43,631 bases of DNA from positions 1 through 43,631 of the IMG/VR virus record IMGVR_UViG_3300049259_000011. One strand, given 5' to 3'. The stretch comes from a virus. The notes under the pieces are model-generated. The model saw only the letters and a program-made list of their open reading frames with translations, was not told the DNA's origin and searched no databases. The stretch's first letter is position 1. Every line of letters begins with the position of its first letter. Shown piece after piece: positions 3,232 to 43,478 of the stretch. The translations under genes were made by a program, and so were the position numbers.

Positions 3232-4842
3232 ATGCAGAAGATTGCTTTCCTCGGAGTGTTGATTGGGGCCGCATTATCTGCGACGAATGCGTTTGCCGCT
3301 CCGACCGCAACGACAATCCCATACGTCGCGAACAACGGGGCGTTGAAATCCCTCCCAACAACGCAATACAAATCCGGTGTGATGCGGTTGGGTTTCGTGA
3401 ATCCCGGCGACAGCAATCGCATTCTGTTTATCCCATCGAACTCGCCATGTACATTGCACGGTGGTACGGGAGACAATGGATCGCAAGTTCCTGGCATCAA
3501 TGGCAAGTGTTGGCTTGGCGTCTTTCCGATCGGCATATACGACGTAACAGCGTTCGGCGCGGATAAAACCGGCGGGGTTGATTCAGTCGTCAACATCCAA
3601 GATGCGGTGAATGCAGCTAGCGGCGGCGGCCAAGTCTATTTCCCCGCCGGATTTTACAAGCAATGCGGAGTTGTTAGCAGCACTGCGCCCGTCGATTTGA
3701 GGGGTGCGGGCAGTGGCGCGGGGCCGGGCTTAGTCCTCCCGCGCACGAGTATTCGTCTCTGTGGCGCAACGCAAGGCGGCTACCATATCACGGCGGGCTA
3801 TCGGTCGTTGTTCGACGGCTTCAACATGACTAGCCTCGTGCCGCAAACCGCCGGCGTCGGTATCCTACTCGACACAACCACAACCGTCGTCGCATCTCAA
3901 TCATTGTTCCGTGACTTATCGTTTGGCAACAGCTACACAACAACCAATCTATACAATCCAATCCAAGTCATCACGCCGAATTATCCTGATTTCCACAACA
4001 TATATTGCCAAGGATGGGTACTCGCATGTGTCAGCGAAACAACTGTCTCTGGCACGGAAGGTTCCGGTGGATACTTCGCGCATAATCACTTCTTCGGTGA
4101 TCCGGCCAACACCAGCCAAGGCCCACCGATCTACAGTGAAGTCGGCTACACCGATGTTCACGACAACGAAATCCTCGCCGGTAGCATTGGCGTTCAATTC
4201 GCCATCAAGAACCACGGCGGCGGTTGGATCAAAGTCCACGACAACACAATCGAAAACAGTCGAATCGCATCTATCGACCTGACATCGCAAGATGGCAGCA
4301 CACTCTCGAATATTATGTTACAGAACAACGAACTATCGAACCTTCTCTACACGTCGGCGTTTGCCGGCCATTTCATGATTCATGAATATCTCGTTGGCGG
4401 CGTCGCACAGAAGAACATATTCAATGACATTCACATCGAAGGAAATTCGCTGACTTCGAGCTTGCCCGTTAATGCGAAATATATGTGGATTCAAACGGGC
4501 AACGGCATCAACATTGCGAACAACAATGTCCGTGATATCGGCGTCGCTAATCCAGTCGCATTCCAAATCACGGGTCTTACCAGCAATGCGGGATATTCCG
4601 GCCCAATCGCCGTTAGTGACAACGGAGTTCTCGGTACAACCAACAAATACGCATTGCAAAACACAACGCCGGTGATTGTACGTGATATGATAAATGGATT
4701 GACAGTCGCACAATTGCCCGCGGCTGGCCCTGGATCGCAAATCTATGTATCAAACGGAACATTGGGAAGTTCCCCGTGTGTCGGCGGGGGCGTCGGTACA
4801 GTTGCATTTCTACTCGGTTCCGGCGCTTGGAAGTGTTTCTAA
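3232..4842 (+). CDS. Pectate-lyase-type beta-helix protein with signal peptide
   Basis: 536 residues. Residues 1 to about 23 form a Sec signal peptide (basic start, core AFLGVLIGAALSA, cleavage site near AFA-AP). Residue 100 onwards shows the entry signature of right-handed parallel beta-helix tailspikes: YDVTAFGADKTGGVDS, then NIQDAVNAASGGGQVYFPAG. Many Asn/Asp-rich rungs follow (for example YTDVHDNEILAGSIGV and NGINIANNNVRDIG). The C-terminus GGGVGTVAFLLGSGAWKCF resembles endings of phage fibre proteins. Such proteins usually bind or cleave surface polysaccharide. A signal peptide is unusual for a virion spike, so it may instead be a secreted depolymerase. It lies just upstream of the large terminase rather than with the tail genes. 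Confidence 0.7.
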   Translation: MQKIAFLGVLIGAALSATNAFAAPTATTIPYVANNGALKSLPTTQYKSGVMRLGFVNPGDSNRILFIPSNSPCTLHGGTGDNGSQVPGINGKCWLGVFPIGIYDVTAFGADKTGGVDSVVNIQDAVNAASGGGQVYFPAGFYKQCGVVSSTAPVDLRGAGSGAGPGLVLPRTSIRLCGATQGGYHITAGYRSLFDGFNMTSLVPQTAGVGILLDTTTTVVASQSLFRDLSFGNSYTTTNLYNPIQVITPNYPDFHNIYCQGWVLACVSETTVSGTEGSGGYFAHNHFFGDPANTSQGPPIYSEVGYTDVHDNEILAGSIGVQFAIKNHGGGWIKVHDNTIENSRIASIDLTSQDGSTLSNIMLQNNELSNLLYTSAFAGHFMIHEYLVGGVAQKNIFNDIHIEGNSLTSSLPVNAKYMWIQTGNGINIANNNVRDIGVANPVAFQITGLTSNAGYSGPIAVSDNGVLGTTNKYALQNTTPVIVRDMINGLTVAQLPAAGPGSQIYVSNGTLGSSPCVGGGVGTVAFLLGSGAWKCF

Positions 4843-4846
4843 CCCG

Positions 4847-6421
4847 ATGCCATCTCCGTTTCGCCCTGTCATCGAGAATATGTTTTCCATCGTGAACAAA
4901 GATGGAGTCACGGTTCCGTTCAAGCTGAATGCGATTCAATCCCGTCTGGATCAAGAATGGTCTCGACGCATCATCGTACCAAAAGCCCGTCAAGGCGGTA
5001 TATCAACCTATGTGATCGGTCGATATACGGCCAAATGTCTCGGCGTGGATAATCGTCGATGCGTGATCGTGTCGCACGAAGCCGACGCGACAAAGCGCCT
5101 CCTCGACAAATCACATTTCATCCTCGAACATCTGCGTATCCCTCAACGCCCCGTGCTGAAACGTTCATCCCGGAACGAAATCACGTTCGAGAAAACTAAT
5201 TCCACGATCTGGATTGGAACAGCCGGTGCCCACAACTTTGGACATGGCGACACTATCACCGATCTGCATCTTTCCGAACCTTCAAGATATGATGATCCCG
5301 ATAACATCGTCAAGGGATTGTTTCCCGCCGCCGAGCGTGGCGAGATCATTGCGGAATCTACAGGTAACGGTGTCGGCAATTGGTATCATCGACAGTGCGT
5401 TCGCGCCCGCGAAGGCCACGGATTTAAGTTGTTCTTTGTTCCGTGGACAGATATGCCGGAGTATTCCATGCCGGTTGATGACACGGCCGCTTTCATCCGA
5501 TCTTTGGATCATGACATGGGCGAGCCGGATTTACTGGCCGCCGGCGTCACCGTTCCTCAGCTTGCATGGCGACGCGAACGTCTCAACATCGATTTCGAGC
5601 GCGATCTAATCGCGTTCCGCGAAGCTTATCCATTCACCTTTGACGAATGCTTTCAAACAACCGGATATGGATTCTTCCAATCTGTATTGTATGCGGAAAC
5701 CGATCTATGGGGGCGTGAAGATGCCCATCTCTGGCGACTGGCAGATCATCCTAAGCCTGGGCTGTCGTATGTCTGTGGCGTTGACCCTGCTGGTGGGAAC
5801 GGTGGCAACAACTCGGTCGCGGAAGTGTTCTGCCTCGAAACGCGCGAACAAGTCGCCGAATTCGCCACCAACCGATTCGAACCCCCCGACTTCGCAGATG
5901 CAACTGCCGTTCTGTGTCGACGCTTCAACCACGCCTACGTCAACATCGAACGCAACAACCACGGATTGACATTCATCGCGAGATTCGTTGATCGATACCC
6001 ACGGTGGTTGATTCATCGAAACACAAACACAGCGCATGTCACTCAAGATGTGATGGTGCGGCTGGCGGATTATGGCACGATGACCGGACCGGCGAATCGT
6101 GGCGTCATGCTCGGCATGGCACGAGATATGCTTCGCACGCAATTTACAATCCATTCTCCATTGTTGAAATCTGAACTCGCCACGGTCGTCGAAAAAGCTG
6201 ATGGCAAGATCGAGGCTGAAATTGGATGTCTTGACGATCGAGTGTTCGCCACAATCATGGCGATGATGTGCCTCGAACGCGCCGGCGTAATGTTGACCGA
6301 CCCTGCCACGGCGAAATACGATGATCCAAACGCGCCGGTCGATCCATTCTCATGGGAATCGATCTTCGGCGAACGATACGCCGGGCCGGATGGCATTCCG
6401 ATCTCGGATCGGTTCCGTTGA
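4847..6421 (+). CDS. terL: Terminase large subunit
   Basis: 524 residues from ATG 4847, four bases after the preceding stop. The open frame back to 4745 only overlaps that gene. The N-terminal ATPase shows an adapted Walker A (PKARQGGISTY, about residue 45) and a Walker B-type stretch ending in an acidic residue (TDLHLSEPSRYDD). The C-terminal RNase H-like nuclease keeps its acids: Asp in CGVDPAGGNGGNNSVAE, Glu in VNIERNNHGL and Asp in AEIGCLDDRVFATIMAM. It is the motor that pumps DNA through the portal and cuts the concatemer. The length is normal for the family. Its stop shares one base with the next start (TGATG), so the following ATP-grasp gene is probably translated with it. Confidence 0.92.
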   Translation: MPSPFRPVIENMFSIVNKDGVTVPFKLNAIQSRLDQEWSRRIIVPKARQGGISTYVIGRYTAKCLGVDNRRCVIVSHEADATKRLLDKSHFILEHLRIPQRPVLKRSSRNEITFEKTNSTIWIGTAGAHNFGHGDTITDLHLSEPSRYDDPDNIVKGLFPAAERGEIIAESTGNGVGNWYHRQCVRAREGHGFKLFFVPWTDMPEYSMPVDDTAAFIRSLDHDMGEPDLLAAGVTVPQLAWRRERLNIDFERDLIAFREAYPFTFDECFQTTGYGFFQSVLYAETDLWGREDAHLWRLADHPKPGLSYVCGVDPAGGNGGNNSVAEVFCLETREQVAEFATNRFEPPDFADATAVLCRRFNHAYVNIERNNHGLTFIARFVDRYPRWLIHRNTNTAHVTQDVMVRLADYGTMTGPANRGVMLGMARDMLRTQFTIHSPLLKSELATVVEKADGKIEAEIGCLDDRVFATIMAMMCLERAGVMLTDPATAKYDDPNAPVDPFSWESIFGERYAGPDGIPISDRFR

Positions 6422-7701
6422 TGCGCGTTCTCGTCATGGGCAAAGAAGGCGATGGGTTCGGCATCGCACAACGCATGGCACTCGAAGGACATGATGTGGA
6501 TGTGTTCTGTGCGGATAAGCGATTTCGTCGGGCGTTGCGCGGGATTGTCAATCGCGTGCCGGCGTGGCCCGGCCCCGCGCGTCGGGCGGACCTTATCATA
6601 TGTGATTGCGTCGGAATGGGTCGATACGAATCGATCATGCGCGATCTAGCCAAACCCTCGATCGGATTCAGCGCCATATGCGACAAGATCGAACTTGATC
6701 GCGTGCTTGGTATGGATATGTTCCGCCGGGCGGGCATTTCGATCCCCGAAACACACGAATTCAAATCAGTTGCCGAGGCGGAATCAATCCCCGGCAAAGT
6801 TGGATGGGGCGACGGATGGGTAGTGAAAGCGAGCGGGAACATCTCGACGGCGAAAACGATGGTCGTCAAGGACGAAACATTGTGGCCGTCCGCGATCCGT
6901 CAGTTGCCCTCCCCGTCGAGTGGCATTCTCCAACGGATTATCGATGGAGTGGAAATTTCCACGGAGGGGTGGTTCAATGGCACCCGTTTCATCCTGCCGT
7001 TCAACCACACGTTCGAGGAGAAACGGTTTCTGACGGGGAACCTCGGATGCAACACAGGTTGCATGGGGAACGTGGTGATAGCGAGTCAGTCCAATCGCCT
7101 GACCAAAGCCACGGTCGAACGGATGACCGAGTTCCTTCGCATGATCGATTATCACGGGCCGTTCGACATAAACTGTATTGTCAACGAAAGCGGCGCATAC
7201 GCGCTTGAAGCGACATCGCGGATGGGATACGACGCGGCCGAGGCGATGTTTGAGGGTTTGGATGAACCCGTGGCCGAATTCTTGTATGATGTCGCCGTCG
7301 GCAAGAAGAAAACCATGAACCTGACGGATGATACGATGATTGCCGTGAGGTTGTCAATTCCGCCATGGCCGGCACGCAAACCCGATCACACGTCATTCGG
7401 TGAGCCGATCCGCGGCATCAACGATCGATCGCTTCCACATCTGTTTCTAACCGATGTGATGAAGGATGGCGAAGATTATGTCACGGCTGGAGGCGACGGC
7501 GTGTTGCTCAAAGCCACGGCTATCGGCCGCATGTCTCCCGCCAAAGACGCGAAATACAAAGATGACTACACATACGAAGCCCGGCGGCGCGTGTATCGAA
7601 CGCTGGATGGGATCGACGTCGCATCCAAGCAATATCGCACGGATGTCGGGATGCGTGTGAACGGTGACATCGCGAAGCTGAAATCCTGGGGATGGATTTG
7701 A
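6421..7701 (+). CDS. PurD-like ATP-grasp ligase
   Basis: 426 residues from ATG 6421, overlapping the terminase stop as TGATG. The order matches glycinamide ribonucleotide synthetase (PurD): a Rossmann-like N-terminal domain (MRVLVMGKEGDGFGIAQRM), then an ATP-grasp core with a nucleotide-binding lysine in WVVKASGNIST and a second strand QRIIDGVEISTEGWF. The PurD-type loop reads KRFLTGNLGCNTGCMGN, compared with a normal D-T-G-P-N-T-G-G-M-G. Near the end, where PurD has its N-R-F-G-D-P-E-T-Q motif, this protein has LEATSRMGYDAAEAM, so the metal/substrate end is altered. Purine synthesis genes are absent around it. The substrate is unknown; nucleotide, DNA or protein modification are all possible. 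Confidence 0.8.
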   Translation: MRVLVMGKEGDGFGIAQRMALEGHDVDVFCADKRFRRALRGIVNRVPAWPGPARRADLIICDCVGMGRYESIMRDLAKPSIGFSAICDKIELDRVLGMDMFRRAGISIPETHEFKSVAEAESIPGKVGWGDGWVVKASGNISTAKTMVVKDETLWPSAIRQLPSPSSGILQRIIDGVEISTEGWFNGTRFILPFNHTFEEKRFLTGNLGCNTGCMGNVVIASQSNRLTKATVERMTEFLRMIDYHGPFDINCIVNESGAYALEATSRMGYDAAEAMFEGLDEPVAEFLYDVAVGKKKTMNLTDDTMIAVRLSIPPWPARKPDHTSFGEPIRGINDRSLPHLFLTDVMKDGEDYVTAGGDGVLLKATAIGRMSPAKDAKYKDDYTYEARRRVYRTLDGIDVASKQYRTDVGMRVNGDIAKLKSWGWI

Positions 7702-7716
7702 ATCGGGAGCTGAATC

Positions 7717-7911
7717 GTGAGCAAGCCGAAAGGCCGCGCTATCATCCAACCATACGGATCAAAATTCGCCGTTATCATCGATGGACGGATTCACAACGTA
7801 TATAACTCACTAGATCATGCTCAAGTCGTTCGTGATGATTTGAATCAACGCAATGCGCGTCAAACGGACGACGCAATGCTGCCGCGTAACATTGAGAAGT
7901 TTCATGGTTGA
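7717..7911 (+). CDS. Small hypothetical protein upstream of portal
   Basis: 64 residues from a GTG start with GGGAG seven bases upstream. The sequence has a compact beta-beta-beta-helix look (RAIIQPYGSKFAVIIDGRIH, then NSLDHAQVVRDDLNQRN), similar to small AP2/integrase-type DNA-binding folds, though no family is certain. It overlaps the portal start by eight bases. Because it directly follows an ATP-grasp enzyme, a substrate role for that enzyme is conceivable, but nothing in the sequence shows it. Confidence 0.6.
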   Translation: MSKPKGRAIIQPYGSKFAVIIDGRIHNVYNSLDHAQVVRDDLNQRNARQTDDAMLPRNIEKFHG

Positions 7912-9631
7912 TGGATACACGCGCGGAGGCATCCCGATCCCGGAGTATTGGGTCGGCGAGATCAATCGGGGTAAAGCCTTCCGCAAGGAAAAAGCATTCG
8001 AGACGAAGTGGGCGGATTGGCGCCGATATTATCGCGGGGAATGGAAAGCCGGGATTCTGCCGTCGAATATCTTCTTCAAGATGATGCGGACGATGGTGCC
8101 GCGTATATACTATCGTAATCCGTCTGTGAGTCTAACGCCGACGCGTCCGGGGGTCGAGAATATGGTTCTGACCAAGCTCATGGAACGTGCGGACAACAAA
8201 CTCCACGATATCATGGGCACGAAAGGTCAGATGAAGCGTGCCGTGCAACAAGCGATCATGTTCGGCACGGGTGGCGTGCGGCTTGGCTATGGCGCGGAGT
8301 TCAGTCCGACTCCGGATGATCTTGGCACATCCGAACCCGACGCGGGCGGATCAAAATTCGCGCATCACGTCGAATACAACGATCTCGTGCATCCAAACAT
8401 GCCATGGTTGATGGCGGCGCATCCGGGGTCCGTGATTGTGCCAGTCGGCGCACCAGACATTCATGCCGCACGATGGGTATGTTTCGAGACGTGGCGATCC
8501 GCCGCCGATCTCAAAGCCGATCCACGGTTCAGACACACAGATTCGCTCGGCGATGGCACACACGCCGGTTCCGGCGGTATGCTGCTCGCAAAATCCAGCG
8601 GACAGAAAAGCCAGCCCGGCGTTCAACTGTGGGAAATCCGTGATAAGAAAACCGGCATGGTTTTCGTGATGGCGCCGAACGCGAACGATCAACGCTCATC
8701 ACAGCAGAAAACCCTGTATTGTGAGACGGATGATTTACTATACAACAAACGTCTGAACTATTATCCGCTCATCTTCAACATGGACGACGAGGCGTTCTGG
8801 GGGATTCCCGACAGTCAGATCATGGAACCCCAACAAATCGAGAAGAACGAAGTCCGCACACAGATGATGTATCATCGACGCGTCGCTCTCGCCAAGTTTC
8901 TGTATGAAACGGGATCAATCGCCCCCGACGAACTTGCCAAACTCGTCGATGGCAACATCTTCAACGGCATTCAGGTTAAATCAATCAACGGCGTGAAGGA
9001 ATTCAATCCTCCCGCCATCCCACCGGCATTGCTCCAAATGGAAGCTGATATCGATCGCGAGACGCAGGAAATCATCGGCCTCGGCGTCAATCAATTCGGC
9101 GAATACGCGCCGGGATCGGCGGACCGATCCGCGACCGAAAGCCAAATCGTCAATCAAGCCACACAAATCCGCATGGACGAACGCCGTGATGCGTGCGCCG
9201 ACCTGCTCACGGATGTAACCTCCCATATCAATCATATCATCCTCGAACATTGGACGGGCGACATCGTGCTTGATGTTATGGGGCCGGAAGGTGTGCCGAT
9301 CTGGATTAAGTTCCAAGCACATGAACTCAAGGATGCGTTGTATGATATCAAGATCGATCCAGATACATCCATCCCTCAAACCCGTCAACTTCGCGAACAA
9401 CGCGCGTTCGCATTGTACGCCCAACTGAAACAGAATCCGCTCATCGATCCGATGCAGTTGACGCGATATCTCACAAATGAGATTGATGGCGTGTGGGCGG
9501 ACAGTTTAATCAAGATGCAAAACACATCGCCGCAGAATCCCGCACCGTTGAGTGCCGTGATACAATCAGCTGGGGCTGGTGGCCCCGGCGGCCAAGGCGG
9601 CGGCACGCCCCCGCAACTTCCAGGAACTTGA
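7904..9631 (+). CDS. Portal protein
   Basis: 575 residues from ATG 7904, which lies inside the previous gene's end. The earlier in-frame region from 7853 is a shadow. The protein has the make-up of podovirus portals: an N-terminal polar region (WRRYYRGEWKAGILPSN, VPRIYYRNPSVSLTP), a helical AVQQAIMFGTGGVRLGYG segment, and a stem/clip-like segment (DDEAFWGIPDSQIMEPQQIE). A long helix containing NRETQ/DRETQEIIGLG follows, then a Gly/Pro-rich tail. The portal forms the dodecameric ring at one capsid vertex, docking the terminase during packaging and the tail afterwards. Its place after the large terminase and before the scaffold and capsid genes supports the call. Confidence 0.88.
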   Translation: MVDGYTRGGIPIPEYWVGEINRGKAFRKEKAFETKWADWRRYYRGEWKAGILPSNIFFKMMRTMVPRIYYRNPSVSLTPTRPGVENMVLTKLMERADNKLHDIMGTKGQMKRAVQQAIMFGTGGVRLGYGAEFSPTPDDLGTSEPDAGGSKFAHHVEYNDLVHPNMPWLMAAHPGSVIVPVGAPDIHAARWVCFETWRSAADLKADPRFRHTDSLGDGTHAGSGGMLLAKSSGQKSQPGVQLWEIRDKKTGMVFVMAPNANDQRSSQQKTLYCETDDLLYNKRLNYYPLIFNMDDEAFWGIPDSQIMEPQQIEKNEVRTQMMYHRRVALAKFLYETGSIAPDELAKLVDGNIFNGIQVKSINGVKEFNPPAIPPALLQMEADIDRETQEIIGLGVNQFGEYAPGSADRSATESQIVNQATQIRMDERRDACADLLTDVTSHINHIILEHWTGDIVLDVMGPEGVPIWIKFQAHELKDALYDIKIDPDTSIPQTRQLREQRAFALYAQLKQNPLIDPMQLTRYLTNEIDGVWADSLIKMQNTSPQNPAPLSAVIQSAGAGGPGGQGGGTPPQLPGT

Positions 9632-9946: not shown

Positions 9947-10243
9947 ATGCCAAAGCCCCGCGTCATTGGCCGTATGATCGTCGAACTCATCGACAACGGC
10001 ACGTCGCGACCAGCACCATCCGTATCGTTCGATCCGGTCGGTCGGTTCACGCCGGGATGGCTCGATTCACATTCATTGTATATCTGTGGTGAAATCCAAC
10101 GCGCTCAAATGCGCGCACGAACCGGCCTCAATCACACGCGAGGATCGGAAGATGACGCAAACCCGAATGCCGCCGTTCTCATCAATGATCCCGAAAACCC
10201 AGACGCGCGGCGCGCCGCCGTCGCAGCCAATGGTGAAGTCTGA
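9947..10243 (+). CDS. Hypothetical protein before scaffold
   Basis: 98 residues from ATG 9947, preceded by GAAAGG with good spacing. A TTG at 9926 in the same frame is less likely. The protein is polar, with a short strand-rich middle (RMIVELIDNGTSRPAPSVSF, then RFTPGWLDSHSLYICGE) and an acidic, Asn-rich tail. The stop overlaps the scaffold start as TGATG, so translation of the two is probably linked. No family is recognised. A minor head or assembly function is inferred from position only. Confidence 0.6.
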   Translation: MPKPRVIGRMIVELIDNGTSRPAPSVSFDPVGRFTPGWLDSHSLYICGEIQRAQMRARTGLNHTRGSEDDANPNAAVLINDPENPDARRAAVAANGEV

Positions 10244-11031
10244 TGCATCCGAAGATATATTCCACGATGATGTCGAGCGTGGCTCGCTTCCCGATCATGT
10301 GCCAGATCGACGGCGCGGGGGATGGTGGCGGCGACGCGGGTGCAAACGGCGGCGGTACGTCCGGCGATGGGTCCGGGGATGGTGCCGGGAATGCCGGCGG
10401 AACGCCTGCACCGGATTGGAATAACTTCATCGGCGCAATCGACAAACTCAACTCGAATCTTGGCGGGAAGCTCGACGCTGTGCTTGGTGCGGCGCAATCC
10501 GCGCAACCATCCAGCGAACCCGACGATGGCGAAGGCGACGATCCTCCGCCGCCAAACTTCGATGAAATGACGAACGCCGAACTCGTCGCGTTCCTTTCAT
10601 CGAACACGAATCGTACAATGAAAGCGATCATGAGCGAGGCCCTTGCCCCGTTGATCGATCGGGTTAACGGCCTAACGACATCATTCACGCAGAATTCCGT
10701 GAACGCGGACGTGGAAAAAGTCCGCGCCGACAACAAAGACTTTGGCGAATGGCATGATGAGATGATCGATCTCGCGAAGGAGAACCCGACTCTCAATGTC
10801 AAGCGTCTGTATGCGCTCGCGAAAGCGGAGAATCCGGCAAAGGCGGAGAAACTCGCGGCGAAGTACGCACCACCACCGAAACCGAAGCCGAATGCGTTCG
10901 GCGGGTTCACGCCCGCGCCGAATGGCAAGGCTTCTTCCACGGCGGTTGTGAGTGCGCTCGAAGCCTCGCGTGAGGCTTATCGCGAAGTTGCGGAACGCCA
11001 TCCTGGCGTTCTGCCAAATCTGTCGGAGTAG
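10243..11031 (+). CDS. Putative capsid scaffolding protein
   Basis: 262 residues. The N-terminal third is a Gly/Asp/Ala-rich low-complexity linker. The rest is strongly helical and charged (EMTNAELVAFLSSNTNRTM, VDEK-type segments, then DFGEWHDEMIDLAKENPTLN). It ends in a basic Lys/Pro-rich part (PPPKPKPNAFGGFTP) and a helical tail. Acidic disordered N-terminus, helical core and basic capsid-binding C-terminus, placed directly before the major capsid gene, is the normal pattern for scaffolds. These fill the procapsid and leave before or during packaging. No protease domain is seen, so the scaffold probably leaves intact. Confidence 0.75.
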   Translation: MHPKIYSTMMSSVARFPIMCQIDGAGDGGGDAGANGGGTSGDGSGDGAGNAGGTPAPDWNNFIGAIDKLNSNLGGKLDAVLGAAQSAQPSSEPDDGEGDDPPPPNFDEMTNAELVAFLSSNTNRTMKAIMSEALAPLIDRVNGLTTSFTQNSVNADVEKVRADNKDFGEWHDEMIDLAKENPTLNVKRLYALAKAENPAKAEKLAAKYAPPPKPKPNAFGGFTPAPNGKASSTAVVSALEASREAYREVAERHPGVLPNLSE

Positions 11032-11037
11032 CCATTC

Positions 11038-12018
11038 ATGGTTAATTCATTCACCCAAGCCCTCGATGATCTCTACACAACCACGTGGCAGAAACGCCTT
11101 CCCGGCGTCTATGACAACATCTTTCAATCCGCGGCGTTCTGGTATTGGATGAAAGATAAAGGCAAGCTGAAGCCAGTGCGTGGCGGTCGGTTCCTCGAAG
11201 TCAACCTCCAATACGGCAAGAACACGACCGTTCAATGGATCACACGCGGCGGCACGGTCCAGATGAACGACTTCAAGTTCCTGACCGTGGCACAGTACAA
11301 CTGGCGATACCTCGTCGCGAACATCCTGCGGTTCTGGGTTGATGAACAGCAGAACTCGGGCGACAGCCGCATCCTTGATTGGGTGAACAGCAAGCTCGAC
11401 AACACCGAGGAATCGCTCGTTGACAACCTCGAAGTCGCGCTCGCAGGTGGTGCGGGATCAGCAACCAACCAAATCGACGGATTGCAGTTTCTCGTCCCTG
11501 ACACGGCGAACGTGGCTTCCGCATCGTTCAACGCCGGCGGTATCGATCCATCGGTGTACACGTGGTGGCAGAGCCAAGGCATCAATATGACGGGTTCGTC
11601 GTTCGCGGTGAATGGCATCCCGAACATGCGGCACATGCTGAATCTGTGCATGAACAACCGTCGTATGGACGCGCCGGACATTCTGTTGTCCGACATGTCC
11701 ACATACGAATTCTATGAAGATGCCGTGTTGCCCATGCTGCGGATCGGCAACACCAAGCTCGCAGACGCGGGGTTCGACAACCAAACGTACAAACGCATCC
11801 CGATGGTGTGGACGCCGGCCATATCCAATCGGATGTATTTCCTCAACACGCGGTTCATCGAGTTCATCTATGATCCGTCGAGCTTCTTCGACATGACGGA
11901 ATGGAAAGCGATTCCCGATCAAGTTGATGATCGCGCAGCCCAAGTCAAGCTCGCATGTTCGTTCGTCACATCGCGTCGGCGCGTTCTCGGCGTGATTGAC
12001 GGCATCAACACGCCATAA
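11038..12018 (+). CDS. Major capsid protein
   Basis: 326 residues, starting six bases after the scaffold stop. It begins MVNSFTQALDDLYTTTWQKR and continues with a glycine-rich loop (GRFLEVNLQYGKNTTVQWI) comparable to an E-loop. A long spine helix follows (DWVNSKLDNTEESLVDNLEV), then an A-domain-like C-terminal half with NIPNMRHMLNLCMNN and DILLSDMSTYEFYED. The closing part FFDMTEWKAIPDQVDDRAAQ is typical of HK97-fold coats of this non-cleaved type. No N-terminal delta domain or protease partner is seen, in agreement with a separate scaffold. The gene order portal, scaffold, coat, decoration supports the call. Confidence 0.9.
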   Translation: MVNSFTQALDDLYTTTWQKRLPGVYDNIFQSAAFWYWMKDKGKLKPVRGGRFLEVNLQYGKNTTVQWITRGGTVQMNDFKFLTVAQYNWRYLVANILRFWVDEQQNSGDSRILDWVNSKLDNTEESLVDNLEVALAGGAGSATNQIDGLQFLVPDTANVASASFNAGGIDPSVYTWWQSQGINMTGSSFAVNGIPNMRHMLNLCMNNRRMDAPDILLSDMSTYEFYEDAVLPMLRIGNTKLADAGFDNQTYKRIPMVWTPAISNRMYFLNTRFIEFIYDPSSFFDMTEWKAIPDQVDDRAAQVKLACSFVTSRRRVLGVIDGINTP

Positions 12019-24859: not shown

Positions 24860-25099
24860 TTATGCGCCTCGAAGATATTGCGTGAGATTACTCAGCCATG
24901 TAGATAGTGGTATAAGCGCATCACACTTCGGACAATACGCATATCCGAATAAATCGGTCCGGCGGATATAAGATTCGAGATGCTTACATTCTGGATCGGT
25001 CCGTTCGATCATATCTCGCCATTCGGCGTTTTGTTCTTTTGATGCCTCAATCACATCCGCATCGATCAGCCAACGATAGAATCGTCTTATCCATGCCAT
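24860..25099 (-). CDS. Small zinc-ribbon-like protein
   Basis: 79 residues from ATG 25099, or 85 from ATG 25117. The first is preferred because it overlaps the polymerase end by only 13 bases. It has an N-terminal helical part (RRFYRWLIDADVIEASKEQN). Near the end, CKHLESYIRRTD is followed by YAYCPKCDALIPLSTW, and the CPKC pair plus an earlier Cys-x-His looks like a zinc ribbon. It lies between the polymerase C-terminal gene and the helicase, so it may help the replication complex. No family is known to me. Confidence 0.6.
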   Translation of the reverse strand: MAWIRRFYRWLIDADVIEASKEQNAEWRDMIERTDPECKHLESYIRRTDLFGYAYCPKCDALIPLSTWLSNLTQYLRGA

Positions 25100-25869
25100 T
25101 TGACCATCGAGCCCCAATCGGTTGCGGAATGTTTGATTTCAATCGGGATAACCAACGGATCAGGGTATGGGACGGTGATTGCCATAGCCACTTTCAGCCG
25201 ATCGACAATTGTGTCGTCGAACAAGTCTGCGCGGATTTGCATGAGCAACGAGTCGTGAATTTGCATGAGGAGTTGAAACTCGGGCAAGGTGCGATGGATA
25301 TTGAGCATGGCATGGTTGATGACAATCGCGACCGTGGATTGACAAACCCAGGCCAAGGCTTGACCGAGAAGATGTGAAGATCGATCGGTGTAAACTCGGC
25401 GGAACCCGAACGCATTTCGGACTTGAGCGATACGGCGAGCGGTGAGTTCATACTCATATCGTTTGTGCCATTCGCCGATTTCGGGATGCCGTTCGCGCGT
25501 CCACCATCGGATCGATCGTTTGACGCGATCTTCCGGCACGACGATGGCTTGGGCGATCGTGCGCGCGCCGCCGGCGTAATCCGTTGCGTGGACCCAACGT
25601 TTCGCATTATCACGGAATGACAGACCGTTGACGTGCATGGCGCGGGGGTTGGGCTTCGCGAGTCCACCATATAGTTCAATCGCGTTCTCGGAATGGATAT
25701 CATCTCCGCGTTGGAAAGCGACTTTCAGATCATCGCATCCGGCATCCCAAGCACAAACTTGAGCATCCGCGCGTTCAAGATCGGCTTCGACGAGGATATA
25801 TCCCGGATCGGGTTGAAAACATGCGCGGATGTTCGGGAGTTTGAGGGCATATAGATCGCCGTCCGGCAT
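25087..25869 (-). CDS. DNA polymerase A, C-terminal half (palm and fingers)
   Basis: 260 residues from ATG 25869, with GGAAG just upstream. It carries the three catalytic motifs of family A polymerases: motif A ILVEADLERADAQVCAW (catalytic Asp), motif B NAKRWVHATDYAGGARTIAQ (Lys and Tyr of the O-helix), and motif C LLMQIHDSLLMQI (HD pair, with Ser instead of the usual Glu after it). It starts at LYALKLPNIRACFQPDPGY, the segment that normally follows N-L-Q-N-I-P in an intact enzyme. The matching first half is encoded 1.5 kb upstream in a separate gene. The two chains must meet to form an active enzyme, unless this half acts alone. Confidence 0.85.
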   Translation of the reverse strand: MPDGDLYALKLPNIRACFQPDPGYILVEADLERADAQVCAWDAGCDDLKVAFQRGDDIHSENAIELYGGLAKPNPRAMHVNGLSFRDNAKRWVHATDYAGGARTIAQAIVVPEDRVKRSIRWWTRERHPEIGEWHKRYEYELTARRIAQVRNAFGFRRVYTDRSSHLLGQALAWVCQSTVAIVINHAMLNIHRTLPEFQLLMQIHDSLLMQIRADLFDDTIVDRLKVAMAITVPYPDPLVIPIEIKHSATDWGSMVKWHG

Positions 25870-25870
25870 T

Positions 25871-26461
25871 TCACTTCCACCATCCCGTTGTGCGGCCGTG
25901 GAAGTAGATTTCACGACATGCGAGGACATCGGCCATGGCGGAATGCGCGTTGTCGAAGTCTCGCCCGAAGCAGAATTGATATGCTTCCATCAACTTCGGC
26001 CATTTGAACTTGCCGTATCGACCGGGCATCTGCATGATGGGCGTGAGGGCTTCCATCGTGCAGAATGGACGCAGAGTATTCATCACGGCGACGGGAATCA
26101 TCGTGCGCGACAGTTCGTTCAACATAATCATCACGTCGAATGAGAAGTTGTGTGCGATGACGAGAGAATCCGGATCAGCGTCGAATGCGGTTTCGATCAT
26201 CTCGACGAATGCGGGCAAGATGAAATCGATTGGCTTCCCGACGTGATGGGCTTTCGCTGTGGTGATGCCGTGGATTTCGGCGACATCATGCGGGATAGTC
26301 CAGCCTTCGGGGAGAATGATATAGTCGAGAGACCGGATGTGTGTGCCGTCCCCCGCGTCGAGAAAAGCACCGAGTTGCACGAGCCGGGGTTGGGATGGAT
26401 GATCCGTGGGGAGCTTTCGATTGATCATGCCGTTGGTTTCGGTGTCGATGAACAGCAACAT
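25871..26461 (-). CDS. DnaQ-like DEDDh 3'-5' exonuclease
   Basis: 196 residues from ATG 26461. The longer frame back to 26896 is a shadow of the neighbouring gene. Exo I is FIDTETNGM (Asp and Glu), Exo II is VIAHNFSFDVMIML (Asp) and Exo III is DNAHSAMADVLACREIY (His and Asp), so it is a DEDDh enzyme with all acids and the His in place. It should trim 3' ends of DNA or RNA in the manner of DNA polymerase III epsilon. It lies inside the block that separates the two polymerase genes and ends one base before the C-terminal polymerase start. The first polymerase gene has its own exonuclease domain, so the phage has two. Confidence 0.85.
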   Translation of the reverse strand: MLLFIDTETNGMINRKLPTDHPSQPRLVQLGAFLDAGDGTHIRSLDYIILPEGWTIPHDVAEIHGITTAKAHHVGKPIDFILPAFVEMIETAFDADPDSLVIAHNFSFDVMIMLNELSRTMIPVAVMNTLRPFCTMEALTPIMQMPGRYGKFKWPKLMEAYQFCFGRDFDNAHSAMADVLACREIYFHGRTTGWWK

Positions 26462-26466
26462 GGGGA

Positions 26467-26784
26467 TCAAACTCCCGCGCCGATGTCTGGGTCTTCGCCG
26501 GGCAATGGATCGCCATCGGTCCCCGGCGCAGGGATGGCGAGATCGATCGACGCATCGACGGCAACGAATCCATCGAGTGAGTCGGGATTCGATCCACGCT
26601 TGACGGCAACGCTCGGACGCATTGCTAGCATGAGCGGGAAGGCTTTGCCATTCACATCGAACACGGTGTCTGCGGATTCCGGTACGACGGGAATGCAGCC
26701 GAGAAGGCGGCCAGATTCGAGTTCTCGAACCTCGGTGAAGCCTTCGGACATGCAACGGATAAACTGTGATGGATCGGACATCAT
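26467..26784 (-). CDS. Hypothetical protein in polymerase gap (105 aa)
   Basis: 105 residues with an ATGA overlap to the previous gene. The N-terminal half may hold a small beta fold (EGFTEVRELESGRLLGCIPV). The tail is Pro-, Asp- and Gly-rich and probably disordered (AIPAPGTDGDPLPGEDPDIG). No catalytic motif is seen. It is one of five genes between the two polymerase halves. Function unknown. Confidence 0.6.
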   Translation of the reverse strand: MMSDPSQFIRCMSEGFTEVRELESGRLLGCIPVVPESADTVFDVNGKAFPLMLAMRPSVAVKRGSNPDSLDGFVAVDASIDLAIPAPGTDGDPLPGEDPDIGAGV

Positions 26785-26969
26785 GCGCTCCAGTTGAATA
26801 GGTGGTACATTGGCGGGTTTTCAAGAAGCTTTTGGAGTCGGAGTTCTGCCTGTCGGGCAGTCTCTCTTGCATCAACAATAGCTTTTCGTGCGTCATTTAG
26901 ATATACTTCATAACGCCAAGCGGTGTCGTTTGCTTGATAACTTGATGCATCGAATGGTCCGTGCGGCAT
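26781..26969 (-). CDS. Small helical protein in polymerase gap
   Basis: 62 residues from ATG 26969. It overlaps the stop of the second reading frame of the broken gene upstream as TGATG and the next gene as ATGA. The centre is a charged helix (DARKAIVDARETARQAELRL) that could form a coiled coil. It probably has no enzymatic role. Its start position supports the view that the upstream gene once ended at 26969. Confidence 0.6.
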   Translation of the reverse strand: MPHGPFDASSYQANDTAWRYEVYLNDARKAIVDARETARQAELRLQKLLENPPMYHLFNWSA

Positions 26970-27414: not shown

Positions 27415-29097
27415 TCAATCCTCATCCGGTTTCTTAAAGTTCTGTAGGTTTCGGCCTTCGCCGAACGCATTCGTATTCGTTGAGAATCTCATCGTCTCGA
27501 CATATGTTACGTTTATGTCGCAATGCAGCCGACCGTCGAATGCGATCATGTCGGGATCGACATCGCCTTTCACCGTATCCAGAGTTCGATAGTGTTGGAT
27601 ATTGCGGACGAGGGGCAACAGCAAAGGGTTCTGCCGTCCGATGACTTCAAGGGTTCCATCGTCAAGCGTAGCGGCACCTGTTTTTCGGTTACGTTGAATG
27701 GACAGCTTAAAGTCGTCATAAAACAATGCCTTACATTGTGGATTGGACAATGGATTGAAATCATGCCCGAGACACGCGGCTAGCCATTGGCCGATTCGGG
27801 CTTTTTCATCTTCAAACTCCGATCGGATAACACGGGCACGCGCCGCGTCGAATCGAATGCCCCGAAACATCATCTCGAATACAGGCGCGAACAAATCCAT
27901 CTCGAATCGATATTGATCCGTGAGGTTCAATCCGGCGAGTATACGCGACAATTCTCGTCGGCATTCCCAAGTCCGCACGCAATCCTCGCAATTGTAGGCC
28001 CATCGTTGGAGCGGAGAGTGTATTGCCGGGTCCCAGAGTTTCCCGTCGTCTTTCCAATAGCGGTAGTATTCGCAGTACATACTTGATATAAAGGACAAAG
28101 AAAGCGACGAACCTTTCTTGTCAACGCGTCCGGTGATGGGATCAATCTTGCCTCCCAGGAGCCCAGGAAAGGCGACGTGTTGCATCGCCATGGTGTCGTC
28201 GATGAGACGCGGCATAATGCCCCATCGATTCGCGATTACTTGAACGTCGTATATGGCGTTGTGGAACGTGATATCTCGCTGAGTAAGCGATGAACTGACA
28301 CATTCAAGCAGATGAATTTCCTCTTGCTCCGTCCAGTATGGCGTACCGTCTGCAAGGAAGAACGGAATGGAAATCGCATCGACAGTGCTTGATGCAAAAC
28401 CAATCGTGTCGATATGGCTCGACATCGTTTCGATGTCCGCGACCAAGGCGTTCGGGTTGTCATGCAGCCAATCCATGACATCGGTGAAGCGGGGTTGAGT
28501 TACAAATCGCCATGCGGGACGGCGGACTTCGGGGAACGCGGATTCGGCTTTCGCCCGGCGGAAATCTTGAACAACGATGGGGCGGTGGGCATATTGACGG
28601 AGAACGTCTGCCGGATGAAACGTCGGGATGACCTTGCCGTGGTCAGTGTCAAGGATTGAACCTCGCCATTTCGTGATGCCCATTTCACCCGCCAAGGCCC
28701 ACATCGGAGTGTTCCCGAGGGCAATGATAAGACGCGGATGGAATGCGCGAATGATTGCATGAAGATGTTCAAGTCCGACGCGGATTTCATTAGTAGGAAA
28801 TCGGCCAGCAATCTCGCTGAGGCCGCGCCGCCGGGCTTCAAGTTTCCCGACGAAGAATTGTTCGATGTCATTCGTGATTGTCTTTCCCTTGGCGTTGGTA
28901 TATGTGGGCGGGCGAATATGACAGACGTTGGTTGCGAAGCAATCGGATCGAGTAATCCCGGCTTCGGCGAGCATTCGATCGAGTTCCATGCCGGATGCAC
29001 CACGGAACGGCAGGGATTGGGCGATCTCAACCTCGCCCGGTGCTTCGCCGACAAGCCAGATCGGCGCGCGGGGATCGCCGGATTCAATCCATGTCAT
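27415..29097 (-). CDS. Uracil-DNA glycosylase / exonuclease / DNA polymerase A N-terminal half
   Basis: 560 residues from ATG 29097 (ATGA overlap; a GTG two codons earlier is possible). Residues about 1 to 190 form a family 4/5-type uracil-DNA glycosylase: LVGEAPGEVEIAQSLPFRGA, NVCHIRPP, and the late motif FHPADVLR. Residues about 215 to 400 are a 3'-5' exonuclease: Exo I ALVADIETMSSH, Exo II ITFHNAIYDVQVIANRWG, Exo III YNCEDCVRTWE. Then comes the start of the polymerase domain, ending TMRFSTNTNAFGEGRNLQNF plus six residues. Intact enzymes continue past N-L-Q-N to catalytic motif A, but here a stop codon follows. Motifs A, B and C are in a separate gene at 25087 to 25869. Confidence 0.85.
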   Translation of the reverse strand: MTWIESGDPRAPIWLVGEAPGEVEIAQSLPFRGASGMELDRMLAEAGITRSDCFATNVCHIRPPTYTNAKGKTITNDIEQFFVGKLEARRRGLSEIAGRFPTNEIRVGLEHLHAIIRAFHPRLIIALGNTPMWALAGEMGITKWRGSILDTDHGKVIPTFHPADVLRQYAHRPIVVQDFRRAKAESAFPEVRRPAWRFVTQPRFTDVMDWLHDNPNALVADIETMSSHIDTIGFASSTVDAISIPFFLADGTPYWTEQEEIHLLECVSSSLTQRDITFHNAIYDVQVIANRWGIMPRLIDDTMAMQHVAFPGLLGGKIDPITGRVDKKGSSLSLSFISSMYCEYYRYWKDDGKLWDPAIHSPLQRWAYNCEDCVRTWECRRELSRILAGLNLTDQYRFEMDLFAPVFEMMFRGIRFDAARARVIRSEFEDEKARIGQWLAACLGHDFNPLSNPQCKALFYDDFKLSIQRNRKTGAATLDDGTLEVIGRQNPLLLPLVRNIQHYRTLDTVKGDVDPDMIAFDGRLHCDINVTYVETMRFSTNTNAFGEGRNLQNFKKPDED

Positions 29098-29351
29098 CGG
29101 CACGAGAATAACTCACAATTCTCGCCATGAAGGCCGCATATGGTAATGGTGAGATCGACGATTTGATACCCGCCGACGCCGAGAATGATCTTCGACATCG
29201 ATGTTTTCGCCGGCTTTTTGTCTGCATCATAGTAAAATATGTTTCCGGTTATCTTTACGTCAGAGAATGATTGCGCCGGCGTGCCTTCGGTGCCGGGGAT
29301 GATGTTGGATGCGATCAATGCAACGGCGGTGGCGATTCCGGTTATGTTCAT
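29094..29351 (-). CDS. Small exported-type hypothetical protein
   Basis: 85 residues from ATG 29351, in ATGA overlap with both neighbours. The first 20 residues look like a weak signal peptide (ITGIATAVALIASNIIPG). Beta-rich mature sequence follows (SDVKITGNIFYYDADKKPA, then SKIILGVGGYQIVDLTITI) with a Cys pair in the last dozen residues. A periplasmic early phage protein would be unusual. The N-terminus could also be a membrane anchor. No family is recognised. Confidence 0.6.
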   Translation of the reverse strand: MNITGIATAVALIASNIIPGTEGTPAQSFSDVKITGNIFYYDADKKPAKTSMSKIILGVGGYQIVDLTITICGLHGENCELFSCR

Positions 29352-42052: not shown

Positions 42053-42244
42053 CTAGTAGTTCAGAGCGACGCTTTTTATTTCGTATTTGTGACCGGGCGT
42101 TGTTTCGATCCCGATGAAACGCAATGCGGCAATCGCTGCCGCACCTTCGGACGCGTATGCTTCGGGCATGACGCTGTATGTACTGGCTTCGGGCCAATAA
42201 TGAAGCACGAGCCAAACCGTTTCGAGAACGTTGCGGCGGCTCAT
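42053..42244 (-). CDS. Small early hypothetical protein
   Basis: 63 residues from ATG 42244 with GGAGGG upstream, in an ATGA overlap with the first membrane gene. NVLETVWLVLHYWPEASTYS, then ASEGAAAIAALRFIGIETTP, then KYEIKSVAL suggests a small mixed fold. Longer frames upstream are shadows. No family known. Confidence 0.6.
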   Translation of the reverse strand: MSRRNVLETVWLVLHYWPEASTYSVMPEAYASEGAAAIAALRFIGIETTPGHKYEIKSVALNY

Positions 42245-42582
42245 CGTGCCGCCCTCCGTTGAATTCCGTTCAAGGCGTATTCGATTGTCGAAAGCGGTCG
42301 CACGAAACCCGCATCGCGTGCGAGCTTGCAAAGTTCTAACAGCGACGCGCCGCTCATATACAACAGCCGCAGCGCGTCGATCATGGCGCGACGATCCTCG
42401 GTCATTGCGCGGCCCGCCGTGCGATGTAAACTGAACCGCCAACGCGGGCGATCCGCCAGAACCATAGCCCGCCAACCTAAACGGGCGCGTAAGACTAAAA
42501 CTGCTGCGATGATACACGACAGCGGAAACCACGCGGCCATGACATGCAACACGATGAAAGTCGTTTGATCGATTAGATACAT
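42241..42582 (-). CDS. Early membrane protein with helical C-terminus
   Basis: 113 residues from ATG 42582, with GAGGGG nine bases upstream. One membrane segment lies near residues 8 to 30 (TFIVLHVMAAWFPLSCIIAA, then VLVLRARLG), which could also be a hairpin. The cytoplasmic part is helical (DRRAMIDALRLLYMSGASLL, then ELCKLARDAGFVRPLSTIEY). It is the first gene of the main early unit, downstream of the TATAAT box at 42684-42679. Proteins of this place often interfere with the host envelope or block superinfection. Confidence 0.6.
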   Translation of the reverse strand: MYLIDQTTFIVLHVMAAWFPLSCIIAAVLVLRARLGWRAMVLADRPRWRFSLHRTAGRAMTEDRRAMIDALRLLYMSGASLLELCKLARDAGFVRPLSTIEYALNGIQRRAAR

Positions 42583-42662
42583 GCTCTTGTCCCCTCGATT
42601 GCGGGGCAGCATGGTTGAAAGGTTTGCAGATATGCGCGGCACTCTCCGTCTACCTACCAAAC

Positions 42663-42684
42663 CGCGCCGTGAGGCGCGATTATA
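42663..42684 (-). promoter_or_regulatory. Perfect TATAAT box with overlapping palindrome
   Basis: TATAAT on the minus strand at 42684-42679 is a perfect -10 box about 100 bases before the first early gene. No good -35 lies 16 to 18 bases upstream. Directly downstream, CGCGCC-TCAC-GGCGCG (42678-42663) is a perfect palindrome over the likely start site. An activator-dependent or repressed promoter would fit this. Confidence 0.45.
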
Positions 42685-42722
42685 TCGACGTTAGAGCGAG
42701 TGCCGTTGTGGATGCCGTGGAA

Positions 42723-42787
42723 CCTGGGATGTTTCGCCCTGGGATCGGCGAGCGCAGACCAGAATGACGTTGGCTGGTCTGCTGCGC
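42723..42787. promoter_or_regulatory. Direct repeat and stem in control region
   Basis: CCTGGGAT occurs at 42723-42730 and again at 42738-42745, 15 bases apart. Next to it GCAGACCAG (42754-42762) and CTGGTCTGC (42774-42782) form a 9-bp stem with an 11-base loop. These sites lie 40 to 100 bases upstream of the TATAAT box, where an activator would bind. No gene is supported between 42583 and 43053. Confidence 0.4.
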
Positions 42788-42919
42788 CGTGGCAGCAAGG
42801 GATTGATAGCACGCGCGCGCGAGGGGCGCAAGCCCTCTAGCCCACATTTTTCGCCGACCCGGCTTGCCCTCTTAACGCTCTTGCGTCAAGGCGGATTTGC
42901 CCATCTGTCGGAGGGTGAT

Positions 42920-43046
42920 GACCTACTATATGTAGTGTGTGTAAGGTGTATATATACTATAAGAGAGATATATTGTTACACCAAAATCACTAGATATACC
43001 CCATATTTCCAAAATCATCACAAGATATGGGGAGATATAGAGGGTG
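42920..43046. other. AT-rich segment with CCCCATAT inverted repeat
   Basis: This stretch is visibly much richer in A and T than the rest of the genome. It contains a perfect inverted repeat, CCCCATAT (42999-43006) and ATATGGGG (43025-43032). Further AT elements such as TATATATACTATAAG lie around 42950. It is beside the TGCAAC iterons, as expected for a DNA-unwinding element of an origin. A plus-strand open frame through it (42764 to 43210) has no protein character. Confidence 0.45.
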
Positions 43047-43053
43047 TTTTCGT

Positions 43054-43206
43054 CTATGCGGCTTTGACGTTAGGCGGTAAAGCGATCTCGCGGGCTAGAG
43101 CGCAACGGCCGATTGCCTCACTTGCTATCAATGCCCGTTCAACGCGAAATCGATCCAACGCATTCACCCATGATGCAATCGACGGAACCGACCATGCAAC
43201 GCGCAT
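43054..43206 (-). CDS. 50-residue leftward protein in control region
   Basis: ATG 43206 to TAG 43054-43056. The sequence is helical and balanced (SIASWVNALDRFRVERALIA, then SEAIGRCALAREIALPPNV). It reads better as protein than the plus-strand frame over the same bases. The ribosome site is poor. It would be the first leftward gene after the iterons, so it might encode a small regulator or an origin-binding protein. Confidence 0.45.
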   Translation of the reverse strand: MRVAWSVPSIASWVNALDRFRVERALIASEAIGRCALAREIALPPNVKAA

Positions 43207-43478
43207 CTGATGGGCTGAACGATCCGGCATGCCTACCTAGCTCACGATGTTGTGTGCCCGTGGCGAGGTTGTTTGGTGCCGTGTCGTCGATGTGTTGTTG
43301 CTTAACATTGCGTATCATCCGCGCAATTGCAACATCATTCTCATCGCATTGTTAATGTTGATGACGATGCAACGTGTTCGTTGTATGTATGCATCATGAT
43401 ATCAATGCAACATCTACATGATGATGATGTATGAGTGATCGATTCATCACATGATGCAACATTATCGTCACTGTTGCA
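43195..43478. repeat. TGCAAC iteron cluster, probable replication origin or control site
   Basis: The hexamer TGCAAC occurs at 43195-43200, 43328-43333, 43368-43373, 43406-43411 and 43455-43460, three of them as TGCAACAT. An inverted copy GTTGCA lies at 43473-43478. Near-inverted arms CTTAACATTGCG (about 43301) and CGCATTGTTAATG (about 43345) flank the first dense copies. ATGATG-type repeats fill the rest. The area between the leftward 43206 start and the first rightward gene has no supported protein gene. Iterons with adjoining AT-rich DNA are typical of origins bound by an initiator. Confidence 0.55.

Follow-up and report, generated by a model that had tools for sequence, protein, structure and literature searches.

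Two 'extra' PurD-like proteins of haloarchaea, Hlac_1553 and rrnAC0307, were judged in 2011 not to be GAR synthetases, having lost the aspartate of the GDPE motif and the N-terminal motifs and diverged at the Mg-site (PMC3261824). They are the closest prior art to the phage ligase family described here, referred to as T-type. By description, they and the T-type proteins are alike in being PurD-like, with a lost GDPE aspartate and a divergent N-terminal region and Mg-site; the haloarchaeal proteins, however, are cellular. Phage-encoded ATP-grasp ligases of unproven function also occur in the amidoligase/glutamine amidotransferase/ATP-grasp sets of LUZ24-like phages (Iyer et al. 2009, cited in PMC10580990; gene set in PMC3890496). 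The LUZ24-like sets lie in the early region, cluster with partner enzymes and have short ATP-grasp proteins (about 291 aa), whereas the T-type ligase has the full PurD architecture, lies in the late region and has no partners. The R2K/RimK-type phage ATP-grasp peptide ligases (PMC7824862), for which protein modification has been proposed, share the ATP-grasp fold but differ in domain layout, and in the PDB and HMM searches the T-type ligase matched PurD better by many orders of magnitude. In the literature, no paper was found that describes the phage T-type family.

The ligase gene and its late operon

The DNA analysed, hereafter the window, is a virus record of 43,631 bases. Its ligase gene, the neighbouring genes and the codons discussed below are listed in Table 1. 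The TGA of terL (6419-6421) and the ATG of the ligase gene (6421-6423) share a single A, which confirms the placement between terminase and portal with a one-base stop/start overlap reported in the first-pass annotation. Homologues of the ligase start at the same residue as the window protein. The true start of terL is probably the ATG at 4847 and the conserved start of the portal gene probably the ATG at 7904, while the small ORF preceding the latter is a putative gene only. The late protein encoded ahead of the major capsid protein gave no family match, and PHROGs contained no match for the ligase at E ≤ 0.1. Among the window proteins searched, neither a purine or nucleotide-synthesis gene nor a Pfam match to an amidoligase or glutamine amidotransferase was detected, in line with the distance from nucleotide metabolism genes that had been noted earlier.

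Table 1. Coordinates of the ligase gene, its neighbours and key codons in the window.
Feature	Position	Strand	Basis or remark
terL (terminase large subunit) ORF	4745..6421	+	phrog_2 match, 5.8e-20
PurD-like ATP-grasp ligase (T-type), 426 aa	6421..7701	+	ORF, contains GNLGCNTGCMGN
K136 codon, ATP-binding lysine, equivalent to PurD K145	6826..6828	+	alignment
E199-E200-K201 codons; PurD D214 replaced by E199, PurD K216 kept as K201	7015..7023	+	alignment
D249-x-N251 codons, in place of PurD Y271-x-G273	7165..7173	+	alignment
E263-x-T265-x-R267-x-G-Y-D-A codons, in place of PurD E-x-N-x-R-x-G-D-P-E	7207..7236	+	alignment
Small GTG-start ORF between ligase and portal, 64 codons	7717..7911	+	ORF list
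Portal protein, SU10/P22 type	7853..9631	+	family match
Conserved late protein upstream of capsid gene, scaffold/protease position	10243..11031	+	
Major capsid protein	11038..12018	+	

Two further features of the window were observed. A pectate-lyase-type tail spike gene (3232-4842, + strand) lies directly 5' of terL, an unusual place in the module. On the opposite strand, a family A DNA polymerase is split: its first part (27415-29103) begins with a fused uracil-DNA-glycosylase domain, its remainder is encoded separately (25087-25929), and a gene for a DnaQ-type exonuclease (25871-26896) lies between them; several relatives likewise show two separate matches.

The order terL-ligase-portal was found in all 42 first-round relatives. 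A search anchored on the portal, and hence independent of the ligase, yielded 68 loci with terL and portal (near-duplicate contigs included), and in 63 of these the ligase gene lay between the two, so that the terL-ATP-grasp-portal order is conserved in other phages. The gene was absent at two of the portal-anchored loci, L137 and L140. In one virus, represented by two records (L145:3129-3602 and L146:4799-5272), the ORF between terL and portal resembles the ligase in its N-domain only, has WWKFWSRNG as its last residues and may be a reduced version of the enzyme. Given these few relatives without the enzyme or with an N-domain-like ORF only, the ligase is not strictly essential in this lineage.

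Mean identity to the window was 48% for the ligase, 43% for terL, 45.5% for the portal and 57% for the capsid protein; the ligase is thus better conserved than both of its neighbours. In comparable pairs, dN/dS ranged from 0.055 to 0.128. The gene is under purifying selection, and these ratios, taken together with the conservation in relatives, indicate that the ORF did not arise by chance.

The spacing at the terL/ligase junction varied among 41 relatives: the two genes overlapped in 21 (by one base in 4 and by four bases in 13) and were separated by 0-50 bases in 12 and by larger gaps in 8. Overlaps were as frequent at the ligase/portal junction. We therefore abandoned the initial idea of a special translational coupling of the ligase to terL and the packaging motor; the stop/start overlap is ordinary late-operon packing.

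Fold, phylogeny and active-site residues in comparison with PurD

An AF2 model of the ligase, built on 36 relatives, reached a pLDDT of 94 and a pTM of 0.91. In the PDB fold search, the 15 best matches were all PurD (TM about 0.71-0.79; best match 2yw2, TM 0.75), followed by PylC, biotin carboxylase and PurK, and the 545 matches at E ≤ 0.001 identify an ATP-grasp fold. Among the viral models of BFVD no PurD-like model was found (best TM 0.44). Alignment of the family profile with PurD by hhalign covered 392 columns (E 3.8e-29), corresponding to a full-length N-ATP-grasp-C architecture, and nearly all family members matched both GARS_A and GARS_C. The PurD domain order recognised in the first-pass annotation thus extends over the full length of the protein. 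Against the PurD equivalog model TIGR00877, however, the ligase scored 66.9 bits compared to a cut-off of 288 bits, and a genome search agreed with this.

In a phylogenetic tree the phage proteins formed one clade (100/98) and PurD another (100/99), and the two were each other's nearest groups relative to PurK, PurT, biotin carboxylase and Ddl (98/93); placed among ATP-grasp enzymes in this way, the ligase clade falls outside PurD. The T-type/PurD split held in a wider quick tree (SH-aLRT 100), in which three cellular relatives formed a group close to the base of the T-type branch.

We compared the T-type family with 46 genuine PurDs residue by residue. The PurD motifs GGREHA, PGN and GDPE, invariant in the 46 PurDs, are absent from the phage family, and the PE of VGPE and the GLAAGKG ATP loop have likewise been lost. 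Where the pattern PS00184 demands R-[LF]-G-D-P-E, the ligase reads R-M-G-Y-D-A; GDPE itself is present in 46/46 PurDs. The score far below the equivalog cut-off, the separate and supported clade and the missing GGREHA, PGN and GDPE motifs together lead us to conclude that, judged by its sequence, the ligase is not a PurD.

Like PurD (TIGR00877; 2yw2, 1gso), the ligase has the full-length fold, the ATP-site residues, the carboxylate arginine and the C-terminal YRxDIGxR. Residues E102, K145, E194, K216, E286 and R290 of PurD are conserved as E91, K136, E178, K201, E263 and R267, and the position of K105 is kept as R94. In contrast, N288 is replaced by T265, D293-P294-E295 by Y270-D271-A272, D214 by E199, G229 by C214, and Y271 and G273 by D and N. 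The substitutions at N288 and at D293-E295, each near 100% in its own family, bear out the earlier observation of a changed metal- and substrate-binding end. Across 96 aligned T-type members, E91, R94, K136, E199, K201, N251, E263 and R267 never change, and position 265 holds threonine in 93 members and serine in the other 3. A C-terminal tail, LKxWGWL, is specific to the family and often conserved. With numbering carried over by alignment, the PurD residues matching R94, K136, E178 and K201 contact ATP, and those matching E199, R267 and A272 contact glycine (PMC8880213). Since the ATP residues and the carboxylate arginine are kept and the others are lost, the ATP machinery appears to have stayed in place while the amino-group and acceptor sites were rebuilt. 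T265 occupies the position of the second metal ligand, usually the Asn of E-x-N, and in the alignment N251 and D249 lie nearby. N251 would correspond to the place where ATP-grasp enzymes usually have their first metal ligand, and for this reason the metal site looks rearranged rather than lost.

The wider T-type family in viruses and cells

With a profile of divergent members, at least 531 T-type loci were confirmed in viral contigs, compared to 20 loci of true PurD found with a PurD profile. T-type genes are thus far commoner in the viral collection, although both scans rest on peptide patterns and the ratio is rough. Distant members still lie among virion genes, at other places: in L104 the ligase gene follows that of the capsid, in L049 and L261-L269 it is among tail genes, and in L277 and its close relative L048 it comes after a pectate-lyase-type tailspike. 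Some adjoin proteins of 1,100-1,900 residues, one of which (L273) matches an internal virion protein family; Pfam searches of the large flanking proteins mostly gave no match. In L305 and its relatives the ligase gene again lies between terminase and portal, with a four-base overlap with the portal gene, yet the GpA-type terminase (PF05876) and the portal (PF12236) both belong to families different from those of the window. As L305 groups in the tree with members adjacent to internal virion proteins, the position at the terL/portal junction probably arose at least twice.

The only T-type copy found among isolated or assembled phage records (26%) is at 42140-43441 of MW202796.1 (L043:20001-21332), a position without an annotated gene. 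The match in Enterococcus phage Efs 1-1-1 was discarded, as it looks like an ordinary PurD (47% to E. coli PurD). In a distant subgroup, the protein encoded just downstream of the ligase (family 12) did not resemble any obvious enzyme on inspection. In L094-L107, where its gene is directly upstream of the portal gene, this protein varies greatly in length and has a shared (D/E)-E-A-E-A-like motif, which might be a cleavage site; a basic, conserved C-terminal stretch often comes after the motif.

Among about 700 genomes of two phyla, three clear T-type members were detected, with PurDs scoring far lower. Two of the three are on phage-like contigs that were already known; the third is a chromosomal gene (L340/L359) on a contig that also carries genes for FtsX, an S41 peptidase and UDP-glucose dehydrogenase. 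Plasmids of Halarchaeum, Roseomonas and Sphingomonas carry further relatives. The Halarchaeum protein has the T-type signature E199, D249, N251, T265 and R267, and the Roseomonas gene adjoins those for a type III polyketide synthase and an aminotransferase. On the Sphingomonas daechungensis plasmid (L360:9001-10301) the gene, which is convergent with a SET-domain gene, has been divided by the annotation into two neighbouring pieces, probably because of a frameshift. The cellular neighbourhoods differ from case to case and reveal no common pathway. Because these relatives lie outside virion operons, the chemistry of the family need not concern virions. A separate PurD-like gene with an open frame of 517-711 aa and a score of about 140-150 bits was seen in three genomes (L173 at G004:C14:30895-32007, and similar genes in G010 and G048) that have no above-threshold PurD; it is possibly an alternative PurD.

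Possible reactions of the ligase

We consider it rather probable that the ligase, as a sister of PurD adapted to phages, joins a carboxylate to an amine at the expense of ATP and is made along with the virion proteins. In such a reaction, the enzyme would phosphorylate a small carboxylate (most probably an amino acid, with R267, E199 and D271 holding it) and then pass the acyl group to an amine other than phosphoribosylamine, bound in a rebuilt N-domain pocket around S7, D11, R45 and D62. No conserved partner enzyme travels with the ligase, and the substrates would therefore probably be ordinary host metabolites, or one host metabolite and one late product of the phage. As a first and tentative guess, the acceptor may be an amino group carried by a virion or packaging component; our second guess, nearly as likely, is a free small amine, for instance a polyamine. 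The boldest version, in which a PurD-descended ligase dedicated to virion assembly couples an amino acid or a comparable carboxylate to an amine of a terminase, portal, capsid or internal-virion protein in several unrelated phage groups, and was placed twice independently between terminase and portal, is less likely than not. Of the virion-protein C-termini, considered as ligation sites, only that of the capsid protein is strongly conserved, which proves nothing. Against the preferred reading as a ligase stand the missing glycine-rich ATP loop and two replacements, of the glycine-binding E295 by alanine and of the metal-ligand N288 by threonine; with these replacements, catalysis could be altered or weak.

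The characterised relatives of this layout, namely PurD, PurK, PurT, PylC and biotin carboxylase, mostly act on small molecules. This habit, the polyketide synthase and aminotransferase beside the Roseomonas relative and the lack of a conserved partner gene make it quite conceivable, if short of likely, that the product is itself a small molecule, for example an aminoacyl-amine such as an aminoacyl-polyamine, packed with the DNA or altering the infected cell late. A diffusible product, however, would not require a constant place in the virion module of unrelated phages, and there is no candidate for it. That the gene is cargo (a moron), serving for example in superinfection exclusion and inserting at tolerant late-gene junctions, would accord with a position that varies by lineage, tail spikes included, and with the terL/portal site having arisen twice; its near-universal presence in the window lineage (63/68) and its conservation above that of terL and portal render this improbable. 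Still less credence can be given to a catalytically dead PurD fold acting as a scaffold or assembly factor. The single relative with an N-domain-like ORF only at the same locus, the loss of the metal ligand N288 and the family-specific tail would fit such a role, but the ATP-site lysines, the metal glutamate and the substrate arginine are invariant in 96/96 members.

Modification of phage DNA, at ends or bases, as envisaged in the first-pass annotation, is very improbable. The gene is beside terL in two independent lineages, and a ligase that acylates amines could use an amino-modified base as its target. However, many members are not beside terL, and no base-modification or precursor gene was matched among the window proteins searched. 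The early genes conserved in 12 relatives encode polymerase A, a nuclease, a primase and an ATPase, along with one unannotated family in six, and nothing in this early module points to base modification or nucleotide synthesis. Least probable of all is a divergent true PurD acting as an auxiliary metabolic gene (AMG) that boosts purine synthesis for phage DNA. The full-length PurD fold, the GARS_A and GARS_C matches and the retained YRxDIGxR would be compatible with it, 20 genuine PurDs do occur in viral contigs, and surveys list viral 'purD/GART' as an AMG (PMC11097641, PMC12043954, PMC11360552). On the other side are the lost GGREHA, PGN, VGPE and GDPE motifs, the score below the equivalog cut-off, the separate clade, a place in the virion operon where PurD belongs to a purine operon, a bona fide PurD that is also present in two host-bin genomes, and the verdict on the haloarchaeal proteins with the same defects.

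The T-type ligases make up a large family of phage enzymes that is strongly conserved and can be recognised by E199, N251, T265 and GYDA, where PurD has GGREHA and GDPE. They should not be annotated as purine-synthesis genes, and the published counts of viral 'purD/GART' AMGs in the surveys cited above may partly include them. If the ligase does modify a virion component, ATP-driven ligation would here be a regular part of virion assembly, which is uncommon.
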